Below, piece after piece: positions 5,722 through 61,551 of a stretch of DNA of 64,000 nt. Within the stretch, counting starts at the first letter, position 1. Each line of letters starts with the position of its first letter. The DNA comes from Candidatus Nitrosacidococcus sp. I8 (GTDB taxonomy: Bacteria > Pseudomonadota > Gammaproteobacteria > Nitrosococcales > Nitrosococcaceae): assembly GCF_945836005.1 (NCBI RefSeq), contig NZ_OX241534.1:1-64000 (forward strand), given 5' to 3'. The notes beneath the pieces were generated by a model. The model did not search any database. It saw nothing but the letters and a program-made list of their open reading frames with translations, and was not told the origin of the DNA. The position numbers were made by a program, and so were the translations under genes.

Positions 5722-6546
5722 TTAGATCTGTTTAATTAAGATTTCACCTTGACCTAAACAGGCCATATCGCCGCAAAAGCGATTTACTCGATGAATTGTC
5801 ATTTCAGGATTAGATAATTGGGTATCTAATTTTTTATAAGAGTCCAACATGAAAGGTAAAAATTCTAAATTATGGACTCCACAATCATTAAAAGTTGCAC
5901 TTAGTTTATTTGGCTTTTGCCAAAGTAGTAAGGAACCTCGTTTCATTCCATACCCAATATAACTCCCAGTACCACCAAGTATAGCAATTGTACCAGCTAT
6001 CATTCGAGAGCCTAAATAATCTCCTGTATCACCTTCAATTAAAAGTGTACCCCGACGCATTTGATCTCCCACTCGATCGCCACTATTTCCTTTAACAATT
6101 ACAATACCTCCAGACATACCAGTTCTATTATTAGGTGCTGCAGCCCCAAGGAAATCATTACAATTTCCATAAACTTTAAGTAACCCATCTTTCATTTCAC
6201 AAGCGGTAAAACTATCGGTATTACCATAAACAGTAATTTCTCCACCCGACATACCCATACCTGTATAAAATCCACAGGATCCTTGTATAGTAATTTTTCC
6301 ATCAGATAAATCCTTACCAATATAATCTATCTTTTGAATTTGCCCAGAAAAAATAATATGATTTATATCATTTCCATCAATATTAAAAAGTTCGCCTATT
6401 CTGATTTTTTGATTACCTACATATAAAAGATAAGCTTTAATTTCAGTTAAAGATAAATGAGATAAATTTTTTGGAATCAGAAAGGATACATCTATTCTTT
6501 GGGCTGGAGGATGATTTAGCGTGAAGGTTAGGGGCGTAGTTTTCAC
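5722..6546 (-). CDS. fhcC: formyltransferase/hydrolase complex subunit C (FwdC-like)
   Basis: A 274-residue protein with FwdC/GltB-C-terminal-like beta-helix repeats. Successive glycine-rich turns such as GMSGGEITVYGN, MKDGLLKVYGN, MSGGIVIVKGN, MRRGTLLIEGD and MIAGTIAILGG run from about residue 95 to 200. In methylotrophic bacteria FhcC is part of the Fhc complex that converts formyl-H4MPT to formate via formyl-methanofuran. Its start codon abuts the fhcD stop, which indicates translational coupling. Assignment rests on the repeats and on the fhcBADC order. Confidence 0.93.
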   Translation of the reverse strand: MKTTPLTFTLNHPPAQRIDVSFLIPKNLSHLSLTEIKAYLLYVGNQKIRIGELFNIDGNDINHIIFSGQIQKIDYIGKDLSDGKITIQGSCGFYTGMGMSGGEITVYGNTDSFTACEMKDGLLKVYGNCNDFLGAAAPNNRTGMSGGIVIVKGNSGDRVGDQMRRGTLLIEGDTGDYLGSRMIAGTIAILGGTGSYIGYGMKRGSLLLWQKPNKLSATFNDCGVHNLEFLPFMLDSYKKLDTQLSNPEMTIHRVNRFCGDMACLGQGEILIKQI

Positions 6547-7443
6547 TTAAGTTATCATATCATGGAGATGAAAGTGAAACGATCCTAGGCGACCCTCATA
6601 ATTACCTGCACTAATTTTAATAATTCCGTTTTTTTTCCCAAAATTGCATATGGTAGATATACCTACTTTCATAGCTCTATTAATATCTTCTTTTGAGAGA
6701 CCATCAATAATAATTTCCATTACCGATTCAGTTTCATAAGTGAGTTTAGTAGCTATCTGTCCTCTTAAGGTAGGGCAAAAAATCGTATTAGTAGAGGCTT
6801 TAAGCATTTTATATTTAGATCCTACTTTTGATCCGGAACTAGTCATTCCTCCAGGGAAAGGTGTGATTACATTCGGTAATTTTTTAATGGCTGATACTGC
6901 TGCTTCACAGGCAACTAAAATTTGAGATTGGGATTTAGCAAATACGAGAAAATTACCTCCACCGATTGCAGAGACTATTCCTGCTGTTTCCTCCGTAAAA
7001 AATTCCCCTCCCATAATAGGAATTCGCCAATAGCGACGATTTTGAATAAGTTTAGAAATCTGAAATCCATCACCAAAAAACCTTAAGTAACTTCCCAAAG
7101 GGATAGTTTGATCACTATTAATCCCAGAAAATAAAGCAACTGTAGGTGTAGTAAGTACACATTGGCTAACTCTGAGCGTAACCTGTTTAGTAAGGGTTTT
7201 ACTGCCTAGAGCAAATAATAAAACTGAAATACCAGGTCTTTTATCCGGGGTTTCGGTAGGCGTAAGAATCCTTTCTATACCTGCTTCACAACCACAACCT
7301 ACAATCGAGGTGGCAAATCCAGTTACTGCTGATGCCGCATGATAAGCCCATTTTAAAGTACGTGCAGTAATTATTATTCGAGTTGCTTTCATGGAGAAAG
7401 CTTCAGCATAGGTAGATTCTATTTCTACTCCATTAATCACCAT
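6547..7443 (-). CDS. fhcD: formylmethanofuran--tetrahydromethanopterin formyltransferase (Ftr/FhcD)
   Basis: Transfers the formyl group between tetrahydromethanopterin and methanofuran. At 298 residues it matches the Ftr family. The hallmark N-terminus (M)VINGVEIESTYAEAFSMKATR is present, followed by a GFATSIVGCGCEAGIE segment near residue 42 and PGGMTSSGSKVGSKYK near residue 198. It is the third gene of fhcBADC: 3 bp separate it from fhcA and it abuts fhcC. Confidence 0.96.
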   Translation of the reverse strand: MVINGVEIESTYAEAFSMKATRIIITARTLKWAYHAASAVTGFATSIVGCGCEAGIERILTPTETPDKRPGISVLLFALGSKTLTKQVTLRVSQCVLTTPTVALFSGINSDQTIPLGSYLRFFGDGFQISKLIQNRRYWRIPIMGGEFFTEETAGIVSAIGGGNFLVFAKSQSQILVACEAAVSAIKKLPNVITPFPGGMTSSGSKVGSKYKMLKASTNTIFCPTLRGQIATKLTYETESVMEIIIDGLSKEDINRAMKVGISTICNFGKKNGIIKISAGNYEGRLGSFHFHLHDMIT

Positions 7444-7446
7444 ATT

Positions 7447-9075
7447 TTATTTATAGCACGGATGAATATAAATATGACCTTGTTTATCTCCAATAATCTC
7501 TTCATCATTCATTTTAAAATTACTTAATTTTAAAGAAAGATAGCGATCAAAATAATTCTGCAAATCCTTTTCTATGGAATCATCAAAAGAAGGACGAACA
7601 ATATGGGTTGTTCCTACTAATGCAGGGTTAAGTAATTTCCCGTTCTTTACAATCAGCTCTCCATCTTTAAAAACATAGGTAGGCTGTGCAAACATTCTTT
7701 CTTTATCTTGATGATCAGTATGGATGGTAATATCTGCATCAGCCTTTATATCTAAGTGCCCTTTATTAGTAAGACCTAATAGTTTTGCAGGACCTGAGCG
7801 GGTAATAATAGCTATTTCATAAAGTGAATACTCTCTTTTTATAGATTTAAGGATACTTACTTTTACCGCATCTGGATGAAGCGTAGCGAGCATATCATCA
7901 CGAAAACTACGATCCATCAATAATCGAATAATATGAGGATACGTAGTAAATAAAGCTCCTGCTGGATGATCAGTGGTTAGGCATACTTGCCAAGGGTTAT
8001 TTATTAATAAAAAAATTTCTAACCCAATAATCCACTGTAAAGAATTTACAAAAGATTTATCTTGGTATTTAAATGGAACAATACCACAACCAGAATGACA
8101 TGATTCATCTATCCATATTCCCTTCTTAGGATAAGCATGAATAAAGTGTGCATACTGTTGCATACTATCTGCAGATACGGACACAGTCTGTCCAAATAAA
8201 ATTTGGCCTACATCAACAGTAATATTGGGATGATTATTAATTGCTTCTGCAACTTGGGCTGCTCCTGAAGAAAATTTACGGTTTCCCTCTTTACTATAAC
8301 TATGGAATTGAACATGAGCAAAGTGAGCAGGTAATCCCTCGCATGCATGAATAGTTTTTAGCGTAGTCTCTAAATTTCCAGGTACTCCTAAGTTGCACCC
8401 ATGTATATGAAGTGGATGAGGAATACCTAAGTCATAGACTGCTTGAGCTAGGTGAAGTAAAATTTGGCGAGGAGTAATTCCATAGAAAGGACCTACTTCA
8501 TCTAAATCTAATTTTCGTTGATTAAATTTAAAAGCATTAACCCCTCCTGGGTTAACTACTTTAATACCTAAGCAATAACTTGCTGATAAAACCCAAGCCA
8601 CATAGTGATTAATTAATTCTTGATCAGTATGTTTAGCAATGCTTTGAAGTAGATAATCATCATTACCTAATAAAGCATAACCTCCTTTATCAATCATGGG
8701 AATATCACCCATTTCTAGGTGAGCTTGGCGGGCATTTATAGGAGATATAGCAGGCTCAAATGCAGCAGTATAACCCATTTTTGCGTACTCATAGCCTATA
8801 TCAAACGTATTAGGAAGTACTGAAGAGAAAGAACGATTATCGATTTTCTTAGGAAATAACATCCGAGCTAAATTGAGCGATCCACCACCAATATGGCTAT
8901 GAATATCAATTGCTCCTGGCATAATAATTTTATCAACTACATCATATTCTAAATCGAAGTGGTTATCCCGAGGAGGTGCTGCAATTTGCCCGTTTTGAAT
9001 ATAAATATTTCCAATCTTACCCTCAATCTGATGAGTGGGATCGTAGATAACCCCACCTGTAAGTTTAATGATCAT
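7447..9075 (-). CDS. fhcA: formyltransferase/hydrolase complex subunit A (formylmethanofuran hydrolase)
   Basis: Amidohydrolase subunit releasing formate from formyl-methanofuran; related to archaeal FwdA. The 542-residue protein has the metal-binding His59-Ser-His61 in IDIHSHIGGG, a NAFKF segment near residue 193 carrying the lysine expected to be carboxylated, LHIHGCNLG and HFAHVQFHS histidine motifs near 223 and 252, and the TTDHPAGA aspartate region near 365. All expected ligand regions are therefore present, consistent with an active hydrolase. It lies between fhcB and fhcD on the minus strand. Confidence 0.95.
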   Translation of the reverse strand: MIIKLTGGVIYDPTHQIEGKIGNIYIQNGQIAAPPRDNHFDLEYDVVDKIIMPGAIDIHSHIGGGSLNLARMLFPKKIDNRSFSSVLPNTFDIGYEYAKMGYTAAFEPAISPINARQAHLEMGDIPMIDKGGYALLGNDDYLLQSIAKHTDQELINHYVAWVLSASYCLGIKVVNPGGVNAFKFNQRKLDLDEVGPFYGITPRQILLHLAQAVYDLGIPHPLHIHGCNLGVPGNLETTLKTIHACEGLPAHFAHVQFHSYSKEGNRKFSSGAAQVAEAINNHPNITVDVGQILFGQTVSVSADSMQQYAHFIHAYPKKGIWIDESCHSGCGIVPFKYQDKSFVNSLQWIIGLEIFLLINNPWQVCLTTDHPAGALFTTYPHIIRLLMDRSFRDDMLATLHPDAVKVSILKSIKREYSLYEIAIITRSGPAKLLGLTNKGHLDIKADADITIHTDHQDKERMFAQPTYVFKDGELIVKNGKLLNPALVGTTHIVRPSFDDSIEKDLQNYFDRYLSLKLSNFKMNDEEIIGDKQGHIYIHPCYK

Positions 9076-9113
9076 AGACTACTCTCATCTAAAGACGGGT
9101 AAATTATCTATTA

Positions 9114-10373
9114 TTATTTAAGAATAGTATTAATTATTTCTGCAGTACTAGGTAGATTCGTATTTCTTAGTTTATATAAGGGAATTACCCTATGATCAGA
9201 GCAAAAAATATGCCCACTATGATCAATTCCAGGCGTGCCTATTGGAATAAAAACTTCAGGATCTTGCGTAAAATTCATCCCAGATCTTCCTAACACTATT
9301 GTGGGTATAGAATATATAGGAGGAGAGAATTTTTGATCAAAAGCAGAAATCCAGATTAAAGAATCTGCTTCTTCTGAATTTAAAATACGCTCAGCTGCAT
9401 ACAAATAGGGGTCATATCCAGAATAACCTGAAGAGAAACTTATCCTCGTAGGATATCCTGTCTGCCAAGTGCATACTTGGTATGCACTAATTTCACTTGG
9501 CAATTCCCAAAATGGAAAAACTGAGCATCGGGTAGTGTGATTAATTAGTCCGATAAACTCGATGAGAATTTGAATAGTTAGCTCTTTATGGGAAATAGGC
9601 CACTGATCTATAGCCCAAGTTACTACGCTATAACGAGCTCGCTTTAATAATTCAACTAAAGAACACAATCGCTCTACAGGAACACCAGCAACTGTTTTAG
9701 CTTGTAGTATGCTACCTATAGTAATTGCCTTTAGCGTAGCTAATATTTCTGGAAGATCCCTAGGATCATAATTAATAATAAGTGGTGATGGGAGATAAGG
9801 CGGATGTTCTTTTAGAATCTCAAGAGAGCATCCTAAATAAATTATTTTTCTTTGTATAGGGTGTGAATAGAGCGAATCTTGATTATTCCAAATGTAGCGC
9901 TCTAAAAAATTTAAATAATTTGATTCTAAATTACCACCTATAACGAGTAGAAGATCAGCACGATTTTTAACCTCAGCTAGAGTTGTACCTATAAAACCGT
10001 TATATTGAATAGCAAAAATACTAGTTAGACCAGAGGCTGCATAATCAACAGTAGCACCATAGTACTTCGCTAATTTTAATGCGGCTTGAATTCCCGCTAC
10101 ATCAGTGGCTAGACCTGATAGTAAAGGTAGCTGTGATTGATTTAGAATACTAATAATATAATCAATAGCTTCTACCAAGCTAGCGGGATTACCTTTAATT
10201 TTAGGCTGACTATCCCCTAATTCTTGTTCAAATCCATTTTTAGTAATTTCACTATTATTTTCTAAAACAGTAGCTTGGTGGTTATGAATTTTTATCCTGA
10301 GGTTATCAGATCCAACACTATCAAATGGATTAGGTACCTCATTCCACAAATGATCTCCAATTGGGAGAATCAT
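9114..10373 (-). CDS. fhcB: formyltransferase/hydrolase complex subunit B (FwdB-like, non-redox)
   Basis: A 419-residue homolog of the catalytic FwdB/FmdB subunit of archaeal formylmethanofuran dehydrogenase. At the N-terminus, where redox-active homologs carry a CxxCxxxC-type iron-sulfur motif, this protein reads PNPFDSVGSDNL (residues 14-25), with no cysteines. This agrees with the bacterial Fhc complex working as a transferase/hydrolase rather than a dehydrogenase. First gene of fhcBADC, 38 bp after the ftsN-like gene. The ATG sits almost directly behind AAGGA, an unusually short spacing, so the exact start is less certain than the gene. Confidence 0.9.
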   Translation of the reverse strand: MILPIGDHLWNEVPNPFDSVGSDNLRIKIHNHQATVLENNSEITKNGFEQELGDSQPKIKGNPASLVEAIDYIISILNQSQLPLLSGLATDVAGIQAALKLAKYYGATVDYAASGLTSIFAIQYNGFIGTTLAEVKNRADLLLVIGGNLESNYLNFLERYIWNNQDSLYSHPIQRKIIYLGCSLEILKEHPPYLPSPLIINYDPRDLPEILATLKAITIGSILQAKTVAGVPVERLCSLVELLKRARYSVVTWAIDQWPISHKELTIQILIEFIGLINHTTRCSVFPFWELPSEISAYQVCTWQTGYPTRISFSSGYSGYDPYLYAAERILNSEEADSLIWISAFDQKFSPPIYSIPTIVLGRSGMNFTQDPEVFIPIGTPGIDHSGHIFCSDHRVIPLYKLRNTNLPSTAEIINTILK

Positions 10374-32227: not shown

Positions 32228-32623
32228 ATGAATCAAATAACTAATCTTATAGCTAGAATGTTGTTAGCCCAGGTTTTTATTTTGGCTGGTATTTCTAAAT
32301 TAGGATCAGGCTATGGAGGTACTCAAGAATATATGAGCTCAGTAGGAGTTCCGAGTGCTTTATTACCTCTAGTAATACTAATTGAGTTTGGGGGAGGAAT
32401 AGCTTTAATCCTCGGTTTCTTTACTCGTTGGGTTGCACTAGTTTTAGCTGTCTTTGCCATAGCAGCTGCAGCACTTTTTCATAGTGATTTTTCTAACCAA
32501 ATGGAAGTAATTGCTTTTACAAAAAATATAGCAATCTCTGGCGGATTATTGCTATTAATGTGCTATGGTGGCGATAAATATAGTTTAGATGCAAGGAAGG
32601 CTAAAGACAAAACAAGCGTTTAG
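32228..32623 (+). CDS. DoxX family membrane protein
   Basis: 131-residue four-helix membrane protein: RMLLAQVFILAGISKLGSG at residues 10-28 is the classic DoxX start, followed by ILIEFGGGIALILGFFTRWVALVLAVFAIAAA. DoxX-like proteins are linked to redox or thiosulfate metabolism in some species, but the family is broad and substrates are mostly unknown. Ribosome site GATAGGAAAATTTT before ATG is moderate. Followed by a small periplasmic protein gene. Confidence 0.88.
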   Translation: MNQITNLIARMLLAQVFILAGISKLGSGYGGTQEYMSSVGVPSALLPLVILIEFGGGIALILGFFTRWVALVLAVFAIAAAALFHSDFSNQMEVIAFTKNIAISGGLLLLMCYGGDKYSLDARKAKDKTSV

Positions 32624-32665: not shown

Positions 32666-32932
32666 ATGAAATCTTTATTAACTACTTTAAGTTTATTGTT
32701 ATTATGCTCTATATCATTTGCTACATTAGCAGAAGAAACTGCTACTGAAAAGCTAGAAGCAAAAACTAATGATGCCAAGAGATCAGCTCAAGCAAAAGTG
32801 AACAGGGCTAAAGAAGCGACCTGTACGGATGGTACAATGAAATGTCTTGGAGAGAAAATTAAAGACAGAACGGTGGAAGCATACGATGCTACAAAAGATA
32901 AAGCCGTAGAGCTTAAACATAAAGCTGATTAA
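32666..32932 (+). CDS. small periplasmic helical protein, unknown
   Basis: 88 residues with a clear signal peptide (MKSLLTTLSLLLLCSISFATLA, about 22 residues) and a mature part of mostly Ala, Lys, Glu and Asp that should form one or two amphipathic helices. Two cysteines (CTDGTMKC) could make a disulfide. Strong ribosome site AAGGAGAG. No recognised family; the composition recalls stress-related helical periplasmic proteins. Confidence 0.75.
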   Translation: MKSLLTTLSLLLLCSISFATLAEETATEKLEAKTNDAKRSAQAKVNRAKEATCTDGTMKCLGEKIKDRTVEAYDATKDKAVELKHKAD

Positions 32933-33012: not shown

Positions 33013-33381
33013 TTATTTTTCTGTTTTTTGAGCTTGATCATCAGCCACCTGATCCATTTCTAGCTCGCTGATTTTTCCATCTTTGTTCCTATCCATATCT
33101 CTGAATAGAGTTTTACTATATTGATCTATTTCTAACTCACTTATTTTTCCGTCTTTATTTTTATCCATGTCTTCAAACAACTCTTTATTATATAGATCTC
33201 TCTCTAATTCGCTAATTTCTCCATCTTGATTTTTATCCATATTTTTAAATAGAGCTCTATTGTACTCTTTAGATTTATCTATCATTCCATTGTTAGATTC
33301 GCTATCTCCGCTTAAACTAGGAGTTGATAGGAATGCAAATAAAAACCCAATAAAATAGGTAATTCTTATATTCTTAGTCAT
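33013..33381 (-). CDS. secreted EF-hand protein 1 (three loops)
   Basis: 122 residues from the ATG at 33379-33381, which overlaps the stop of the preceding EF-hand gene by 8 nt and fits a signal peptide (MTKNIRITYFIGFLFAFLS). An upstream in-frame start would add 13 residues and spoil the signal. The mature protein has three almost identical EF-hand units, each with the loop DKNxDGxISELE or DRNKDGKISELE, all with acidic positions 1, 5 and Glu12. It should bind calcium in the periplasm or outside; no enzymatic domain is seen. Confidence 0.88.
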   Translation of the reverse strand: MTKNIRITYFIGFLFAFLSTPSLSGDSESNNGMIDKSKEYNRALFKNMDKNQDGEISELERDLYNKELFEDMDKNKDGKISELEIDQYSKTLFRDMDRNKDGKISELEMDQVADDQAQKTEK

Positions 33382-33703
33382 TTGTAACCCCCATTTCCTT
33401 TTTGCTGATATAGCCATCACGATCAGTGTCTAAGTGTCCAAAATTACGTTCTGTGCCTGCTTCAAACTCTTCAACGCTTACTCTTCCATCTCCATTCCTA
33501 TCAAGTAATCTAAGCAAATTATGAACCGCCTTTTTGCGTTCTTCTTCTTCATATTTAGGGTGCTCGGGAGGTATATAATCTGGGCTCATAGGAAATGGTA
33601 GACCGCCAGTAGCAATAGCCCGATCCGGGGTACCTACTATTGTAGTTAGATAAATAGCAAATAGTAGAAAAATCCCTAAAACTCTAAAGAGAGCTTTACC
33701 CAT
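33374..33703 (-). CDS. secreted EF-hand protein 2
   Basis: 109 residues. A hydrophobic N-terminal export segment (residues 4-24) is followed by ATGGLPFPMSPDYIPPEHP, a motif shared with EF-hand protein 3, then two canonical loops DRNGDGRVSVEE and DTDRDGYISKKE. AGAGGGGAGG precedes the ATG. Coupled to EF-hand protein 1 by overlap. Looks like a tandem duplicate of the next gene. Confidence 0.88.
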   Translation of the reverse strand: MGKALFRVLGIFLLFAIYLTTIVGTPDRAIATGGLPFPMSPDYIPPEHPKYEEEERKKAVHNLLRLLDRNGDGRVSVEEFEAGTERNFGHLDTDRDGYISKKEMGVTND

Positions 33704-33776
33704 AAGCCTGCCTCCCCTCTAGTACTTAATTCCAAGAAATTAGAGTTAGGTTTAAGATTTAAACTCTTAATGATTG

Positions 33777-34139
33777 CTATTTATGAATAGTACCCATCAT
33801 TTCTTCTCTGCTAATATAGCCATCTCTATTAGTATCTAGGTGGCTAAAATTACGTTCAGTACCTTCCTCAAACTCCTCTATACTTACTCTTCCATCCCCG
33901 TTTCTATCTAGAGATCGCAGTAATTCATGAATCATTTTTCTACGTTTTTCTGCATCGTACTTAGGGCGGTCTGGATGGCTTGGGGGAATATATTCAGGGT
34001 CCATAGGAAATGGTAGCCCACCAGTAGCAAAAGCTGAAGGAGTAGTCAAAGATAGCAAAAAAACGGAGGAAGTAGCTAGGGGCAATAAAAAAAGCCCACC
34101 AAGGGTAAAATTACCTATCGTCCTAATAATCTTTTCCAT
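33777..34139 (-). CDS. secreted EF-hand protein 3
   Basis: 120 residues; signal sequence up to about residue 38 (ending TTPSAFA), then TGGLPFPMDPEYIPPSHP and two EF-hand loops DRNGDGRVSIEE and DTNRDGYISREE. From the FATGG motif on it aligns closely with EF-hand protein 2, which shows recent duplication. AAGGGAG before ATG. A strong GC-rich stem-loop lies 40-65 bp upstream. Confidence 0.88.
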   Translation of the reverse strand: MEKIIRTIGNFTLGGLFLLPLATSSVFLLSLTTPSAFATGGLPFPMDPEYIPPSHPDRPKYDAEKRRKMIHELLRSLDRNGDGRVSIEEFEEGTERNFSHLDTNRDGYISREEMMGTIHK

Positions 34140-34179
34140 GATCTTTTACTCCCTTATCTTATATATAACAGCCACTCAC

Positions 34180-34204
34180 GCCCTGCAGTTAAGTGCTGCA
34201 GGGC
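34180..34204. other. GC-rich stem-loop upstream of EF-hand protein 3
   Basis: Perfect 9-bp stem GCCCTGCAG / CTGCAGGGC with a 7-nt loop in otherwise AT-rich DNA, about 41 bp before the ATG of EF-hand protein 3. No T tract follows on either strand, so a simple terminator is unlikely. Could be a leader structure or protein site. Confidence 0.6.
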
Positions 34205-34298
34205 ACGGATAAATTGATTAGGCAAATAATGTATTAATGAAACTAATATACCATACTGTTGTTTACTATTAAAATTCTATCAGTATGGAAATCTAAAA

Positions 34299-34637
34299 CT
34301 AGTTGGTAGGATTATGTTCTAATTGCAATAACCCTACATTATACGTTTCTTCTTGTTTTAAGACAGCTAAATAAAGCTCTTGATCACTAAGATAGCCATC
34401 TCCGTCAAGATCTATTGCATGAAACCGATCATCAGCAGCTAAATCTACTTCTAATTCACTGATTCTACCATCTTTATTTTTATCTAATTCTTGAAAGAAT
34501 TGCTCATTAGCTTCTTTCTGCATATTTTTATAAGAATTAGTAGATACTTTATCTTGGGCAAAGCCAGGGATAGTTAGCATTAGTGCAAAAATTCCACTAA
34601 GAATAGCTGAGCAGCTTATAAATTTTGAATTCTTCAT
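34299..34637 (-). CDS. secreted EF-hand protein 4
   Basis: 112 residues with signal peptide (MKNSKFISCSAILSGIFALMLTIPGFA) and two EF-hand loops: DKNKDGRISELE near residue 53 and DLDGDGYLSDQE near 74. Preceded by AAGGAGAG. It is most similar to EF-hand protein 5 in the second half (AADDRF/AAGKRF then DLDGDGYLS). Confidence 0.88.
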   Translation of the reverse strand: MKNSKFISCSAILSGIFALMLTIPGFAQDKVSTNSYKNMQKEANEQFFQELDKNKDGRISELEVDLAADDRFHAIDLDGDGYLSDQELYLAVLKQEETYNVGLLQLEHNPTN

Positions 34638-34783
34638 ATTATGTATACTCTCCTTTTTAGTATGGAAGGACTTATAGATATCCTCCTACCCTAAGGATAG
34701 GATCTATTGTGAAAAATTCAAGATGATGAGAGATATTTTTATAAAAAACATCTATAATAGATAAACCAAGTTAGTAGCTCTAG

Positions 34784-35212
34784 CTAATTCTCAGCTAGCA
34801 TACCGATAAATATTTGATCTGTACTCTCACTCTCGGGTGTAATTAATCTAGATTGGGCAACTTTAGTATAGTTAGCCTCTTGATTCAACTGGGCAATATA
34901 GAGTTCATCTTCACTAAGATAACCATCTCCATCTAGATCCATATTTTTAAATCTCTTACCTGCTGCTAGATCAATTTCAAGCTGGCTAATTTTTCCATCC
35001 TTATTTATATCTAGCTCCCTAAATAACTGTTCTTTATTTATATCTAGCTCTCTATAGAGTTTTTCTTCTTGAGTTTCTTCCCGTACCTTATATTTATAGC
35101 TAGAATCAGAACTGGGTCGATCACCAGCGAAGACAGAAAAAGATACACTAATAGCAAGGATTCCACTAAAAATTGTTAAGCAACAAGCATTTTTCAAATT
35201 TCTTTTTTTCAT
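34784..35212 (-). CDS. secreted EF-hand protein 5
   Basis: 142 residues from the ATG at 35210-35212, chosen because AAGGAGAG lies upstream at normal spacing and a signal peptide follows (MKKRNLKNACCLTIFSGIL). A longer frame to 35302 lacks both. There are two canonical loops, DINKDGKISQLE and DLDGDGYLSEDE, plus an internal duplication RELDINKEQLFRELDINKDG that creates a degenerate third half-loop. Confidence 0.86.
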   Translation of the reverse strand: MKKRNLKNACCLTIFSGILAISVSFSVFAGDRPSSDSSYKYKVREETQEEKLYRELDINKEQLFRELDINKDGKISQLEIDLAAGKRFKNMDLDGDGYLSEDELYIAQLNQEANYTKVAQSRLITPESESTDQIFIGMLAEN

Positions 35213-35372
35213 AACGTCTCTCCTTATTTTGTACTCACTTCTATCATAGGAATGAGTGTCTCTCTCATCAATTAAGATTAGACAGCATCTGCGAAAAATC
35301 AAGAAAATTTATTGAAAAGTAAAGAGAGAGTACTAAAAATATTTTTAGGGAAAGACTTAAAATGGAGGGAAT

Positions 35373-35406
35373 AAATTAGCCTTACAAAAAGATGTAAGGC
35401 TAATTT
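35373..35406 (-). terminator. rho-independent terminator
   Basis: 14-bp perfect stem AAATTAGCCTTACA / TGTAAGGCTAATTT with a 6-nt loop, between EF-hand genes 6 and 5. It ends the transcript of EF-hand gene 6, so EF-hand gene 5 probably has its own promoter. Confidence 0.8.
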
Positions 35407-35440
35407 TTAAAGTGTTAGTAAAGCAATCTACTAACCGTTA

Positions 35441-35749
35441 TTAGTCTGAATGTTCATTGTGTTTTTTCTTCATTTCTTTAGCAGCCGCTGCCGCTTCGTC
35501 TTTAGTAACATATCCATCTTTATTAGTATCTACTTTATCAAATCGTGCAGCAGCCGCTGCTTGTGCTTCTCCTTTACTAATCTTACCATCCCCGTCTGTA
35601 TCCATTTTACTAAACATTTTTTCCATATGTTTTTCATGTCTACCTTCCTTATCTGAAGAGCCGGCAAAAGCAGAAGCAGAAAATATCAGTGATAAAGCAC
35701 CACCGAAAATGAATAAATTACGTAACATTTTAATAGAGGCGATCTTCAT
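35441..35749 (-). CDS. secreted EF-hand protein 6
   Basis: 102 residues starting at ATG 35747-35749 behind AAGGAGT with 7-8 nt spacing; an upstream in-frame start has no ribosome site. Signal peptide MKIASIKMLRNLFIFGGALSL ending SASAFA, then two loops DTDGDGKISKGE and DTNKDGYVTKDE embedded in Lys/Ala/Met-rich helices. Closest in the cluster to EF-hand protein 7. Confidence 0.88.
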   Translation of the reverse strand: MKIASIKMLRNLFIFGGALSLIFSASAFAGSSDKEGRHEKHMEKMFSKMDTDGDGKISKGEAQAAAAARFDKVDTNKDGYVTKDEAAAAAKEMKKKHNEHSD

Positions 35750-35812
35750 TAGAATACTCCTTTTAAAGTTTAAAAAATAAATAAGGAAAATAATATCTAG
35801 CGATACCTTCAA

Positions 35813-36178
35813 CTAATTATTGTTGTCTGAATCTCTATGATGTTTTTCCCAATTGCCACGATTGCCCCCATGGTGTTCCTCTCCTTCATTCCCATAATTA
35901 CCATGGTGCTTATTACCTTTGCTTTCATTTTTCATAGAAGAACCAAGCTCATCTTGAGTAATATATCCGTCACTATTGGAATCAACTTTATCAAATCGAT
36001 CTTTTAATGATCCTTTGGCTTCATCTTTGCTGATTTTACCATCTCCATTCGAATCCATTTTGCTGAACCACTCTCCTTTGTTTCCTTCTTGAGATGAAGC
36101 AGCAAATATTGGAGTAGAAAATATTAAAAACAGTGCACCACCAACTATTAACAAATTACGCAAAAAAATAGTTTTCAC
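35813..36178 (-). CDS. secreted EF-hand protein 7 with His/Asn/Gly-rich tail
   Basis: 121 residues. The start is GTG (36176-36178), 7 nt after AAGGAGT. Signal peptide about 26 residues (ending TPIFA), two loops DSNGDGKISKDE and DSNSDGYITQDE, then a low-complexity tail with repeated HH, GN and EE that may bind transition metals. First gene of the EF-hand series in the direction of transcription. Confidence 0.87.
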   Translation of the reverse strand: MKTIFLRNLLIVGGALFLIFSTPIFAASSQEGNKGEWFSKMDSNGDGKISKDEAKGSLKDRFDKVDSNSDGYITQDELGSSMKNESKGNKHHGNYGNEGEEHHGGNRGNWEKHHRDSDNNN

Positions 36179-36269: not shown

Positions 36270-37013
36270 TCAAACTCTTGCTTTGACTAGTTGATATATC
36301 AAATTGTTCCACATCATCCCAAATTTTTGACTCCTCTTTAATAATTCTTGAATCTCAGACCAGCTAAATAGGGAATTTTTTAAAATATCATAGGTGTTAA
36401 ATAGAACTTTTAAGTAATTATTATTTTTCCTATAATCAATCCATTTTTTTCCTAACCATCCGAGGGTAATTACTATCCATAGGATGGGGGTAATAGGTAA
36501 ATGAAGAAAGATGGTATTTAGTGAATAGGGAGGAATAGTAGTGAATGAAAAAATAATTATCCATGCCAATATTTTTAAGATAAATAATCCAAATCGCCAA
36601 AGTTCTGCTAAAATTCTAAACGTAGAATTACCTGATTTTTTAGATTGATAACGGCTATGGGGCATAGTTTGGACTCGAATAGCATCAAGTGCATTTAAAC
36701 AATCTCTATAAATCAAAATATCCATCATTAACCAATCTAACTCTTGACAATGGATTTGGGGAAACTTTAAATAGTCAGTAATTACAGTTTCTAACTCTGT
36801 CTCTTTAAAAGACAAGTTCTGCCAGTCATATTCCTTATTTTCTTTACTTCTATGATTCCAAATTATTTCAGGGATACTTTTATCATTCTTCCAATGGATA
36901 GAAGTAGATAAATTATCAATTATAGATTCTGCTTTTTTTAGAAGATAATCTTGGTTGGGATCTTTAGCTGTTTGAGTAGTGATTTGCTGAATAAGCGTAT
37001 CTTTATTTGTCAT
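36270..37013 (-). CDS. hypothetical membrane protein
   Basis: 247 residues, not recognised. The first 135 residues are soluble and charged; two hydrophobic segments follow (about 142-162 and 168-190), then a basic C-terminal region of about 55 residues. No clear ribosome site. Divergent from lgt. Probably cytoplasmic domains on both sides of a hairpin in the membrane. Confidence 0.7.
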   Translation of the reverse strand: MTNKDTLIQQITTQTAKDPNQDYLLKKAESIIDNLSTSIHWKNDKSIPEIIWNHRSKENKEYDWQNLSFKETELETVITDYLKFPQIHCQELDWLMMDILIYRDCLNALDAIRVQTMPHSRYQSKKSGNSTFRILAELWRFGLFILKILAWIIIFSFTTIPPYSLNTIFLHLPITPILWIVITLGWLGKKWIDYRKNNNYLKVLFNTYDILKNSLFSWSEIQELLKRSQKFGMMWNNLIYQLVKARV

Positions 37014-55270: not shown

Positions 55271-57559
55271 ATGAATAAAATCCATCGATATATTAAAAAG
55301 CTATCTATCAATCGTTGTTTCTTACTCTCTATTGGATTATTCCTGCTGCCTATATGTGCTCGAGCTACAACACAATTACAAGATATAAAATATGCCTCTT
55401 TAACAGGAAATCAAACCCAAATTCAATTTATATTTTCAGAGTTTGCCTCCTATCCGCAATTTTTTACCATAGAGGATCCCTCAAGGATTATATTAGATTT
55501 TTCAGAGACACAAATTGCTTTAGATGCTAAATCCAAGTCCGTTGGATTAGGTGCTGTTAATAACCTTATTATGGCTGAAGATACCAATCGCACAAGGGTA
55601 GTCGTAAATCTAACCCATTCAGCACCTTTCAAAATTAAAGAAAATGGAAATATTATTGAGCTATTAATACAAGATACTGAAGCCAATTCCCGTCCGAATT
55701 CAAAATTAATTAATAATTACCTATATCGAATCAAAAATATTGATTTTCGTAGAGGCGAACATGGAGAAGGGCGTATTATTGTACTGCTTTCTGATCCCCA
55801 TATATCTGTTGATATTAAAGAAGAGGGCGGAGATATTATTGCCGATTTTTCTAATACCCATCTACCTGATAAGTTTAAGCAACGCTTAGATGTATTAGAT
55901 TTTGCAACACCAATTAAGTTTATAGATATTTTCCCTAGAGAAAAGGGGGCAAGAATTCATATTATCCCAATAGATTCTGATCACGAATATCTCTCCTACC
56001 AAACTGATAATACTTTGGTGATAGAAGTAAAACAGGGTAAAAAACGAGGAGAGGAAGATGATGATGAATATATGGGAGAGAAACTTTCTCTAAACTTCCA
56101 AGATATTGAGACAAGAACTGTATTACAGTTACTAGCGGATTTTTCTGAATTTAATTTAGTTACCAGCGATGCAGTACAAGGCAATGTTACTTTAAGATTA
56201 AAAAAAGTACCCTGGGATCAAGCCCTAGACATTATTTTAAAAACTAAGGGGTTAGAAAAACGCCACAGGGGAGATATTACCTTGATTGCTCCTAGTGAAG
56301 AGTTAGTAAGTAATCAAGAACAGGAGTTAAAATCCCAGAAACAAAGTGAGGAACTTGCACCACTTCGTGCTGAATTTATTAAAGTTAAATTTACTAAAGC
56401 AACTTCTCTCGCTAGTCTCCTTACCACAGGAATAAGCCCAATAGACAACTCACCTATGGGCATGATGGCAATGATGGGTGGCGGTATGGGTGGCGGTATG
56501 GGTGGCGGTATGGGTGGCGGTATGGGTGGCGGTATGGGTGGCGGTATGGGTGGCGGTATGGGTGGCGGTATGGGTGGCGGTATGGGTGGCGGTATGATGG
56601 GCGGTATGATGGGCGGTGGCAGTGGTGGTAGTAATTCTAATAATTCTTTTATCTCTAAAAGAGGAAAAATTATTATAGATGGTCGCACTAATACCCTATT
56701 TATTATGGATACTCAAGATAGTTTGGATCAAATCCACAAAATTATCGCTAAATTAGATGTCCCAGTACGTCAAGTACTCATTGAATCTAGGATTGTTATT
56801 GCAAGTACTCAATTTAGTAAAGAACTTGGGGTCAGATTTGGGCTTAACAAGCAATCTGGTGCTGGAAATGGAGCATTTCAGAATTTCACTACCTCTGGGT
56901 CTCTAGATGGTACAAATACAATCATGACGAGTGGTACTGCGGGGGATCTTTCAAATCGTTTAAATGTTAATTTTCCCTCACCTCCTTCAACAGGAGGCGT
57001 AAATGCAGCACAAATGGCACTTGCATTTACCAAACTTCCTTTAGGAACTTTATTAGAATTAGAACTCTCTGCGTTACAAACAGAGCAAAGGGGTAAGATT
57101 CTGTCTAATCCACGGGTAGTTACTGCTAATAATAAAATGGCTATTATTACGCAAGGTACTCAAATTCCTTATCAACAAGCAGCTTCGAGTGGAGCAACTT
57201 CTATTTCATTTAAAGAGGCAGTATTAAGTTTAATGGCTATTCCCCAAATTACTCCTGATGATCATATTATTATGGATTTAAAAGTAAATAATGATGCTGT
57301 AGGTGCAATTTTTGGTGGGGTGCCAAGTATTAATACCCGAGAGCTTATGACTCAAATACAAGTAGAAAATGGACAAACAATTGTACTGGGCGGAATATAT
57401 GAAGAACAGGGCAATAGACAAAAAAACAAAGTACCTTTTCTAGGAGGTATACCCTACATTGGTGCATTATTTCGTGGTACTGTAGATAGTACCCAAAAAA
57501 GTGAATTACTGATTTTCATAACGCCTAAAATTATCGAAGAATCCGCTCAATTTAGCTAA
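55271..57559 (+). CDS. pilQ: type IV pilus secretin PilQ
   Basis: 762-residue outer-membrane secretin through which the pilus leaves the cell. Signal peptide (about 1-32, ending ICARA), two AMIN domains for peptidoglycan binding (about 35-130 and 150-250), an STN/N0 domain (LSLNFQDIETRTVLQLLADFS near 273), N1 domain, and the secretin core (VLIESRIVIAS, then VPFLGGIPYIGALFRG near 726). Unusual is a run of ten perfect GGGM units (about residues 403-442) inside the N1 region. The operon continues with aroK. Confidence 0.96.
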   Translation: MNKIHRYIKKLSINRCFLLSIGLFLLPICARATTQLQDIKYASLTGNQTQIQFIFSEFASYPQFFTIEDPSRIILDFSETQIALDAKSKSVGLGAVNNLIMAEDTNRTRVVVNLTHSAPFKIKENGNIIELLIQDTEANSRPNSKLINNYLYRIKNIDFRRGEHGEGRIIVLLSDPHISVDIKEEGGDIIADFSNTHLPDKFKQRLDVLDFATPIKFIDIFPREKGARIHIIPIDSDHEYLSYQTDNTLVIEVKQGKKRGEEDDDEYMGEKLSLNFQDIETRTVLQLLADFSEFNLVTSDAVQGNVTLRLKKVPWDQALDIILKTKGLEKRHRGDITLIAPSEELVSNQEQELKSQKQSEELAPLRAEFIKVKFTKATSLASLLTTGISPIDNSPMGMMAMMGGGMGGGMGGGMGGGMGGGMGGGMGGGMGGGMGGGMGGGMMGGMMGGGSGGSNSNNSFISKRGKIIIDGRTNTLFIMDTQDSLDQIHKIIAKLDVPVRQVLIESRIVIASTQFSKELGVRFGLNKQSGAGNGAFQNFTTSGSLDGTNTIMTSGTAGDLSNRLNVNFPSPPSTGGVNAAQMALAFTKLPLGTLLELELSALQTEQRGKILSNPRVVTANNKMAIITQGTQIPYQQAASSGATSISFKEAVLSLMAIPQITPDDHIIMDLKVNNDAVGAIFGGVPSINTRELMTQIQVENGQTIVLGGIYEEQGNRQKNKVPFLGGIPYIGALFRGTVDSTQKSELLIFITPKIIEESAQFS
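56477..56596 (+). repeat. 12-bp tandem repeat in pilQ, ten copies
   Basis: Ten uninterrupted identical copies of GGTGGCGGTATG encode (Gly-Gly-Gly-Met)10, followed by imperfect MGGM units to about 56628. The unit keeps the reading frame, so copy number changes would alter PilQ length without breaking it. The opposite strand gives a Pro-Ile frame that is only a shadow. Confidence 0.97.
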
Positions 57560-59269: not shown

Positions 59270-60161
59270 TTATTTTCTGTAAAAAATAAGTCTGAAGCTT
59301 ACCAGCCCTAGTAACATCATTAAAAGTGAGGAAGGCTCTGGTACAGTTGAAGTGCCAGAGTCGCCCGCAGTTGGATCGCTAGGGTCGCCACTATCACCAG
59401 TAAATCCACTATAACCGACATAATTTACGGTAGCACTACCAGTGATACTACTCTTACTTTTACCTCCAGCTAAAATGCTACCGTTGATAACCTTACTACC
59501 ACTGAAAAATACCATTAGCTAGAAGAAAAGTTCCTGCAAAAGAAGCACTAGATCCAGTAGCACTAAAATCTCCACCTACGTTAAATAGCACATGATCTGC
59601 GGTTAGACCACCGGCAAGAATAATAGCAGATGATCCTTTGAGGCTTACATCACCAGTTACATTAATAATAAACTCATCTGTTGCTGATCCGCTAAGTGTT
59701 AGTGTGTTTGAGCCTGTAAGGTTTATATTTCCTGAAATATCAAACACGGATCCATCTGCACTACTTAGGGTAGTAGTACCACTAATGCCACTTAAACTTT
59801 GATCTGCAGTTGTACTGTTGGCAGCATCAGAAACATTTTTTATGTCACTATATAAATCATTCCAATAACTACTATTTGTATTTTGGGTAGCTGTACCAGT
59901 AACATGGGAGCTATTTCCACTAAAACTATCACCATACTCCGTATTTCCATTAATAGTTCTACTACCAGTTAATGTTAATGCACCACTGGTACCTACATTT
60001 CCATTGATAGATCCACTACCAGTCATTGAAGTAGTACCCGCAATCATTCCACCATTTGTGGTGAGTAATGCAAAATTTCCTGCATCACCTAGGTTAATAG
60101 GAGAAGCAAGAGTAATACTAGAGGCTCCAAGGAGAATTAATGCTAATAATTTTTTATTTAT
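59270..60161 (-). pseudogene. broken PEP-CTERM protein gene (DUF3494-like), frameshifted
   Basis: Two overlapping frames join into one protein like the intact paralog at 60598-61551. The 5' part encodes a signal peptide (NKKLLALILLGASSITLASP), the INLGDAGNFALL start of DUF3494-like domains, and repeats up to TFLLANG. The frame then ends at FQW-stop. Dropping one T from the T5 run (A5 on the plus strand, 59505-59509) restores NGIFSGSKVINGSILAGG, matching the paralog's NGNLNLSGG...IGNVLTGG, and leads to a PEP-CTERM tail VPEPSSLLMMLLGLVSFRLIFYRK-type (VPEP, hydrophobic helix, basic end). There is also no ATG/GTG/TTG for the signal peptide: the frame opens with ATA at 60159-60161. Two defects suggest decay. 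Confidence 0.8.
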
Positions 60162-60257
60162 AATCAGAATTATTCTTTTATATTATTTATGTGCTTAAAT
60201 AAACTTTTTTTGTTATTCGTTTTGGGCTAAATAACCCATATATCGCAAAACATGAGT

Positions 60258-60273
60258 AGCAACTTTTATACCA
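60258..60273 (-). promoter_or_regulatory. candidate sigma54 (RpoN) promoter
   Basis: On the minus strand TGGTATAAAAGTTGCT fits the -24/-12 pattern TGGCACR-N4-TTGCW, with GG and GC exactly 10 bp apart and only two mismatches. It points at the broken PEP-CTERM gene, about 97 bp before the ATA. No other support. Confidence 0.45.
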
Positions 60274-60340
60274 TCATCGCTATCTTATTAATTATAATAA
60301 ATAGAATATTTATGTTTTCTACCGATATAACTTAAAAATA

Positions 60341-60355
60341 TGACGTAAATTGTCA
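60341..60355. promoter_or_regulatory. palindromic operator-like site, copy 1
   Basis: TGACGTAAATTGTCA, an inverted repeat TGAC-N7-GTCA, 180 bp upstream of the broken PEP-CTERM gene and 68 bp upstream of the sigma54-like element. It shares 13 of 15 bases with copy 2 upstream of the paralog. Confidence 0.55.
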
Positions 60356-60539
60356 CTTTGGAATTTTAGAGTAGGTTCTCAATAAAATATTGAGGCTTAT
60401 AAGGGATTTTATCTATAGCTCTAAAGAGAAAGGCTTAAGCGATAATTGTCTTTAAATCTTTAAGAACTGGCTTGTTTTATAAGCAAAAAAGCTAGGATAA
60501 ATTTGTGGAAATGAGAGAAGGAGTAAAGTAATACAAGAT

Positions 60540-60570
60540 CTCGCTTAGGATTATTCTATCCCTAAGCGAG
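60540..60570 (-). terminator. terminator hairpin of the intact PEP-CTERM gene
   Basis: 10-bp perfect stem CTCGCTTAGG / CCTAAGCGAG with an 11-nt loop, 28 bp after the stop codon of the intact PEP-CTERM gene. Only a short T-rich stretch follows on the minus strand. Confidence 0.6.
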
Positions 60571-60597
60571 TATTTATAATTTTTTTAGTTTAATTTC

Positions 60598-61551
60598 TTA
60601 TAGATAATAGGTTATTTTTCTCATACGGGTAATCATGCTAAGACCTATTAATCCTAGCAAAATCATGAATAGGGGAGTAGGCTCTGATATTGCACTAGAA
60701 TCATTTCCATTATTTGGATTTATTAATCCTGGAAGCACAGTATTAGTAGCAGTATCAGCAGTAGGTCCAGTATAGGGGATTCCTGATGTACCAGGGCTAA
60801 TTGACATATTCATCATTGATCCACTTGAGATACTATCTGTACCAGTACCGCCAGTTAAAACATTGCCTATTAAACTTGCACCACCAGATAAATTCAAATT
60901 ACCATTTGGTAAAAGAAAAGTACCAAATAATTTAACACCTCCCAACCCTTGAAGATCGCCATTTTCTATATTAAAAAGAACGTGATTAGCGGTGACACCG
61001 CCATCAAGGACAATAGAGGATCCAATACCAAAAGTTGCACCTCCATCGACATTAATTATAAATTGCTCATCGGCTGAGCCACTAAGAGTCAGAGTATCAG
61101 CACCTCCTAAATTTATACCCCCAGAGATATTAAATACAGAGGGTTCAGCATCTCCTGTGCCAGTTAATACAGTATTTCCCGTAATGCTACTCAAGGAATT
61201 ATTTGGATCTACAGTCATACCACTAGCAGCACTAGAAGCAGCAGAAATATCATCATAAAGACTATTCCAGTAGCTAGAATCTATATTCTGATTAGCAGTG
61301 TGGGGTGATTGAATTGCAGTAGTAGTAGTATTAGAGTCTGGATCTAAAAAATTGCCATAGAGCACATCTCCATAAATTTTAGCCCCCAAATACATATTAA
61401 GAGTATTACTACTACCTATATTTCCAGAAATTGAACCGCTAATATTCGTGTTTCCACGAGTAGAGAGTAAAGAGTAATCTTGTAGTAGTGGAGTTGCAAA
61501 TGAAGTACTAGAAATGATAAATAAAGTGATGGTTATTAATATTTTTTTCAT
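60598..61551 (-). CDS. PEP-CTERM sorting-domain protein (DUF3494-like)
   Basis: 317 residues. Signal peptide MKKILITITLFIISSTSFA, then Ser/Thr/Gly/Asn-rich beta-repeat sequence with NISGGINLGGADTLTLSGSADEQFIINVDGG and ANHVLFNIENGD, a Thr/Gly/Asn linker and a C-terminal sorting signal SEPTPLFMILLGLIGLS with basic end RMRK. This signal is normally recognised by an exosortase and linked to exopolysaccharide or biofilm matrix. No exosortase is in the window. AGAGG ribosome site 9 nt before ATG. The domain resemblance to DUF3494 is by eye. Confidence 0.87.
   Translation of the reverse strand: MKKILITITLFIISSTSFATPLLQDYSLLSTRGNTNISGSISGNIGSSNTLNMYLGAKIYGDVLYGNFLDPDSNTTTTAIQSPHTANQNIDSSYWNSLYDDISAASSAASGMTVDPNNSLSSITGNTVLTGTGDAEPSVFNISGGINLGGADTLTLSGSADEQFIINVDGGATFGIGSSIVLDGGVTANHVLFNIENGDLQGLGGVKLFGTFLLPNGNLNLSGGASLIGNVLTGGTGTDSISSGSMMNMSISPGTSGIPYTGPTADTATNTVLPGLINPNNGNDSSAISEPTPLFMILLGLIGLSMITRMRKITYYL

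Follow-up and report, generated by a model that had tools for sequence, protein, structure and literature searches.

Among characterised bacterial proteins, the ones most alike in kind to those described here appear to be CaBP of Caulobacter vibrioides and EfhP of Pseudomonas aeruginosa. CaBP (CCNA_02838), from an environmental bacterium, is a Sec-exported periplasmic protein of 133 residues that is nearly all EF-hand (three hands) and is induced by acid and by calcium limitation (PMC13171946). EfhP is a small, predicted periplasmic Ca2+ sensor with two canonical EF-hands that binds Ca2+ (Kd 13.7 µM) and changes conformation (PMC9132961). A further small exported EF-hand protein, the lanmodulin of Methylorubrum/Hansschlegelia, has four hands, a proline at loop position 2 (Pro2) and Asp9, and its adjacent loops lie 12-13 residues apart, as against the ~25 residues typical of calcium-responsive EF-hand proteins (PMC10232371). 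Here we describe an array of seven successive open reading frames for small exported EF-hand proteins, all on the minus strand at positions 33013-36178 of a 64-kb window. The window is the first 64 kb of the genome (G000; one contig of 1,848,551 bases) of Candidatus (Ca.) Nitrosacidococcus sp. I8. This strain, "Ca. Nitrosacidococcus urinae" I8, oxidises ammonia, tolerates acid and was enriched on urine (PMC9574496). The array is real, conserved, under selection and larger than usual, yet it is made of a known class of protein.

All seven products exceed the Pfam EF-hand cut-offs (EF-hand_5/EF-hand_1). When the strict loop pattern D-x-[DN]-x-D-G-x-[ILVFM]-x3-E was searched as DNA over the whole window, it returned 15 matches, all inside the seven genes (mean of 100 shuffles, 0.00), with three loops in gene 1 and two in each of the other six. 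Every loop is canonical by the usual residues (D1, D/N3, D/N/S5, G6, hydrophobic 8, E12): D1, S/T9 and E12 occur in 15 of 15, accompanied by N/D3, D5, G6 and I/V/L8, and neither Pro2 nor Asp9 is found in any of them. Each product also begins with a predicted Sec-type signal, judged from charged and hydrophobic residues and an AxA-like site (in gene 1, SLS), and we strongly infer that all seven are exported. A first-pass annotation of this DNA had described seven consecutive minus-strand exported EF-hand genes with 15 loops, two or three per gene, and that description holds in full. The mature chains are 73-113 residues long and free of cysteine, with 21-37% of each taken up by loop and a mature isoelectric point (pI) of 4.3-5.6 in six of the seven. 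They thus have the makeup of the small exported EF-hand class, namely a Sec signal (by sequence) and little besides EF-hands. The annotation was broadly correct in remarking that they contain almost nothing else, though it passes over the long tails that follow the loops in genes 7 and 5 and the TGGLPFPMxPxYIPPxHP segment that genes 2 and 3 share ahead of theirs; N- and C-terminal extensions vary between the A, B and C subtypes listed in Table 1.

Within the proteins, neighbouring loops start 72 nucleotides apart, leaving a 12-residue linker in 8/8 adjacent pairs as opposed to the ~25 residues of calmodulin-type pairing, so that the earlier label 'calmodulin-like' does not fit the geometry. 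The same 72-nucleotide spacing is the commonest between neighbouring loops in the other Pseudomonadota listed (30/66 among the matches listed), and short linkers therefore seem to be usual among bacterial EF-hand proteins, without being a lanthanide signature. AlphaFold models of mature gene 6 (pLDDT 78, pTM 0.48) and mature gene 1 (pLDDT 72, pTM 0.50) both have a helix-loop-helix-loop-helix arrangement, for which a fold search of the PDB returned generic EF-hand proteins only (polcalcins, S100, calmodulin; best Z 4.2-4.3).

Matched by description, CaBP is probably the closest of the known proteins, sharing with the window proteins its size, export, near-exclusive EF-hand content and, on the reading proposed below, its tie to calcium and acid stress; EfhP shares the small size, the two canonical hands and the predicted location. 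As each protein of the array is an ordinary member of this class of small periplasmic EF-hand proteins, the first-pass statement that no known system matches was too strong. The differences lie in organisation and stoichiometry: CaBP is a single gene overlapping the sigV promoter, whereas the window holds seven tandem paralogs without a sigma factor gene, and EfhP is likewise a single gene whose product binds about one Ca2+ per protein.

What is exceptional is the tight array and the loop density, not the type of protein. We searched 184 sampled gammaproteobacterial genomes with a short-linker-pair profile built from the window array, and hence biased toward it; 55/184 contained a match. The longest run of neighbouring genes was the seven of G000 and the next largest seen was two, in keeping with the earlier claim that the array is unusually large. 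Absolute counts are not extreme: at E <= 1e-6 another genome (G458) has nine matches versus eight in G000. The canonical-loop pattern, found 16 times in G000 on one strand (8.7 per Mb), gives this genome the top density among 199 Pseudomonadota genomes, followed by G344 with 8.4 per Mb.

Comparison was made with a sister genus of the same family (G001, 2.0 Mb), with four larger family relatives (G002-G005) and with a member of the same order but another family (G007). G001 carries a collinear three-gene EF-hand array at the equivalent position, between rlmJ and doxX-groEL (gene names from sequence), and absence from all relatives, which the first pass would have taken as refuting its proposal, does not apply. 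An EF-hand array with the lgt-side neighbour gene was not found in the four larger relatives, though that neighbour gene is present there. G004 has six A-type paralogs and G003 two, which resemble the window proteins in signal peptide (GG-xLSL), 12-residue-linker pair and charged, His-containing tail, but are dispersed on the chromosome, not tandem, several of them being transcribed divergently from a gene for a response regulator or a STAS-like protein. The divergent cassettes of G004 lie at L085:3855-5778, L087:12909-14707, L088:2540-4287 and L089:3757-4899. G002 and G005 have distant EF-hand proteins only. In a tree of these short sequences, in which several forks remain open, genes 2 and 3 group with G001c (support 96/94) and genes 1, 4 and 5 with each other (95/90). 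The first of these groups, the C type, implies that at least two subtypes, A and C, are older than the genus split. The array thus appears to have grown through tandem duplications at a single site on the chromosome in acid-tolerant ammonia oxidisers and, it would seem, to have been enlarged further in the window lineage after that split. Paired paralog cores are saturated at synonymous sites (proportion of synonymous differences, pS, 0.73-0.86) with few amino-acid differences (non-synonymous, pN, 0.11-0.22), so the copies are old and kept by selection: the array is under purifying selection.

Judged by their loops, the products almost certainly bind some metal cation, and Ca2+ is the likely ligand, because the Pro2 and four-hand hallmarks of lanmodulin are missing and no pyrroloquinoline quinone (PQQ) methanol dehydrogenase above cut-off is present. 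We read the set as seven Sec-exported periplasmic Ca2+ binders that would serve as a buffer or reserve, some of them as sensors, expanded in acid-tolerant ammonia oxidisers and coupled to pH, and we give this reading a probability of about 0.55. After Sec export the proteins would be located in the periplasm or in the lumen of the intracytoplasmic membranes, each mature chain being predicted to run helix, Ca loop, helix, Ca loop, helix, the loops being linked by 12 residues. The short loop pairs probably become ordered upon Ca2+ binding, and EF-hand pairing may be completed between chains, by oligomerisation. Together they would most likely provide a high-dose envelope Ca2+ buffer and reserve, with some members as sensors. 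The carboxylates that coordinate the ion in EF-hands become protonated in acid, so less Ca2+ should be bound as periplasmic pH drops, and in this way the array could tie the Ca2+ of the envelope to the pH outside the cell in a nitrifier that tolerates acid. The calcium-buffering or acid-stress role suggested in the first pass is to that extent reasonable, given an acid-tolerant organism and the induction of CaBP both by acid and when calcium is limiting (PMC13171946).

Several points weigh against a buffer or reserve. The link to acid tolerance is based on two genera, and the models are moderate in confidence and their PDB fold matches weak. Ordinary EF-hands would be expected to give up their Ca2+ at pH 2.5-4, which weakens pure buffering in acid. 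Deletion of CaBP in Caulobacter increased biomass and did no harm to the cell (PMC13171946). The main text of two Nitrosacidococcus transcriptome papers does not mention calcium or EF-hands, and a search of the literature yielded no relevant study of EF-hands in Nitrosococcus or Nitrosacidococcus.

The chief rival to buffering is a sensing-only role, which we regard as possible, if tentative: loaded periplasmic Ca2+ or pH sensors would engage membrane proteins as partners and turn regulators on or off, the seven copies differing in threshold or partner. It has precedents in the CaBP-SigV loop of Caulobacter and in EfhP, and the terminal extensions do differ among subtypes. A hint comes from G004, where four of six EF-hand paralogs are divergent to a FixJ/NarL-type response-regulator or STAS-like gene, a duplicated cassette that possibly links periplasmic calcium to a regulator. 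Yet that layout could reflect segmental duplication, neither G000 nor G001 has a close homologue of the G004 response regulator, and both the window array and that of G001 lack a regulator gene, whether inside them or next to them. We consider it unlikely that the proteins instead act outside the cell or at its surface, where, as acidic Ca2+ binders released by the cell, they would cross-link the polysaccharide or surface proteins of flocs and biofilm. The mostly acidic mature proteins (six of seven), the flocs and biofilm made by strain RJ19 (PMC8115276) and the altered extracellular matrix of the Caulobacter CaBP deletion (PMC13171946) would suit such a role, but apart from the Sec signal no anchoring, sorting or carbohydrate-binding segment was seen, and no matrix gene adjoins the array in the window.

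We give very little credit to a lanmodulin-like function in binding a lanthanide or other trivalent metal, although the exact 12-residue spacing agrees with one published hallmark (adjacent hands 12-13 residues apart), the proteins are short, lanmodulin is the top PDB sequence match of gene 6 (phmmer, E 4.7e-8), and the window contains fhc-like (formylmethanofuran) genes, named by sequence. Two of the three hallmarks (PMC10232371) fail, with two or three hands in place of four and Pro2 in 0/15 loops; loop position 9 is Ser/Thr throughout, not Asp; NCBIfam NF053806 scores reach 19.4-34.4 bits versus a cut-off of 135; no PQQ alcohol/methanol dehydrogenase above cut-off was found in the G000 genome; and the 72-nucleotide spacing is, as noted above, not diagnostic. 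Hand number, Pro2, NCBIfam score and the missing dehydrogenase together rule out membership of the lanmodulin family. Lanmodulin, which folds as a three-helix bundle, was also not among the PDB fold matches of the models, which is not informative. The genes on the minus strand at 5722-10373 resemble those for formylmethanofuran dehydrogenase and tetrahydromethanopterin formyltransferase (fhc), presumably their identity, in an ammonia oxidiser without a methanol dehydrogenase above cut-off. Equally improbable, and disfavoured, is neutral amplification of a repeat-prone locus without function. The tandem layout and the short, repetitive coding sequence would be expected of such a relict, but every paired core combines saturated synonymous sites with low amino-acid change, none of the 15 loops, the seven reading frames or the signal peptides is disrupted, and the array is conserved across genera.

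A variant of the calcium reserve that we hold to be rather improbable is a combinatorial envelope calcium system in which short two-loop chains, unable to pair alone, would form Ca2+-induced homo- or hetero-oligomers and so make up a graded, pH-gated store and switch; if true, it would have no described counterpart among bacteria. Little is understood about how acidophilic ammonia oxidisers work physiologically, and in Ca. N. tergens most canonical acid-stress genes are hardly pH-responsive (PMC13170337). An old, selected, single-locus array of calcium binders is a concrete candidate, not remarked on until now, for a part in keeping their envelope in balance, and its seven short-linker proteins form a natural set for asking what divides calcium-type from lanthanide-type EF-hands.

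Table 1. Genes and other features of the EF-hand array and its immediate neighbours (window coordinates).
Feature	Position	Strand	Description
247-residue protein	36270..37013	-	no assigned family; upstream neighbour outside array
gene 7	35813..36178	-	putative exported EF-hand protein, A-type, 121 residues, GTG start; loops 36020-36055, 35948-35983; Gly/His/Asn-rich tail
gene 6	35441..35749	-	putative exported EF-hand protein, A-type, 102 residues; loops 35567-35602, 35495-35530
inverted repeat	35373..35406	.	perfect 14 bp, 6-nucleotide loop, between genes 6 and 5
gene 5	34784..35212	-	putative exported EF-hand protein, B-type, 142 residues; loops 34976-35011, 34904-34939; upstream degenerate loop DINKEQLFRELD
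gene 4	34299..34637	-	putative exported EF-hand protein, B-type, 112 residues; loops 34449-34484, 34377-34412
gene 3	33777..34139	-	putative exported EF-hand protein, C-type, 120 residues; TGGLPFPMDPEYIPPSHP segment; loops 33873-33908, 33801-33836
gene 2	33374..33703	-	putative exported EF-hand protein, C-type, 109 residues; TGGLPFPMSPDYIPPEHP segment; loops 33467-33502, 33395-33430
gene 1	33013..33381	-	putative exported EF-hand protein, 122 residues; three loops 33202-33237, 33130-33165, 33058-33093, in exact 24-residue register
DoxX-family membrane protein	32228..32623	+	convergent neighbour outside array; flanks the G001 (sister-genus) array too

Gene 1 starts at the ATG at 33381, not at the GTG at 33420, and shares its first 8 nucleotides with the end of gene 2. 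The inverted repeat is a possible terminator or processing hairpin and splits genes 7-6 from genes 5-1, so the array may form more than one transcript; a terminator scan of the array did not detect it. No Rfam match was found in the intergenic regions of the array, and a sigma-70 promoter scan, with fewer matches than in shuffles, was uninformative. The 247-residue upstream neighbour is kept in 5/5 family relatives examined (46-48% identity); a search of genome contigs with it as query did not return a related locus.

The DoxX neighbour prompted a comparison with the EF-hand precursors (Buf_EGKC|EF-hand) of MNIO-modified, bufferin-type ribosomally synthesized and post-translationally modified peptides (RiPPs), which are likewise exported EF-hand proteins and whose clusters can include DoxX (PMC12452194). 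A search for the MNIO enzyme (PF05114) was positive in two control genomes and found none in G000, G001 or G004, and the mature window proteins contain no cysteine, so this identity fails. The type III effector XopAW was likewise rejected, as NCBIfam NF041410 scores only 29.8-44.8 bits versus a cut-off of 120, the likeness being confined to shared EF-hands.

Next to the array, the plus strand at 32666-32932 encodes an exported Lys-rich protein of 88 residues with two cysteines and no Pfam family above cut-off, which is confined to the acid-tolerant pair, G000 and G001, among six family genomes (62% identity; at another position in G001). Elsewhere in G000 a further exported EF-hand-like gene (112 residues; C1 ~1005338-1005676, L092:2339-2677) adjoins a transaldolase-like gene; its loops are imperfect and differently spaced, and a related gene occurs in G004 (L071). 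In G007, L078:959-4474 holds a loose cluster of about three very acidic exported EF-hand proteins, mostly with 14-residue spacing.

The first-pass annotation had also raised a link to pili or PEP-CTERM proteins; none was found, the PEP-CTERM-like reading frame lying ~24 kb from the array. It is the longer of two tandem Ice_binding (PF11999) domain proteins that this small-genome nitrifier encodes on the minus strand at 59496-61551, and it ends in a PEP-CTERM-like SEPTP...hydrophobic...RMRK tail. A PilQ/secretin-like protein encoded on the plus strand (55271-57559) contains a long Gly-Gly-Met repeat at 56314-56688.

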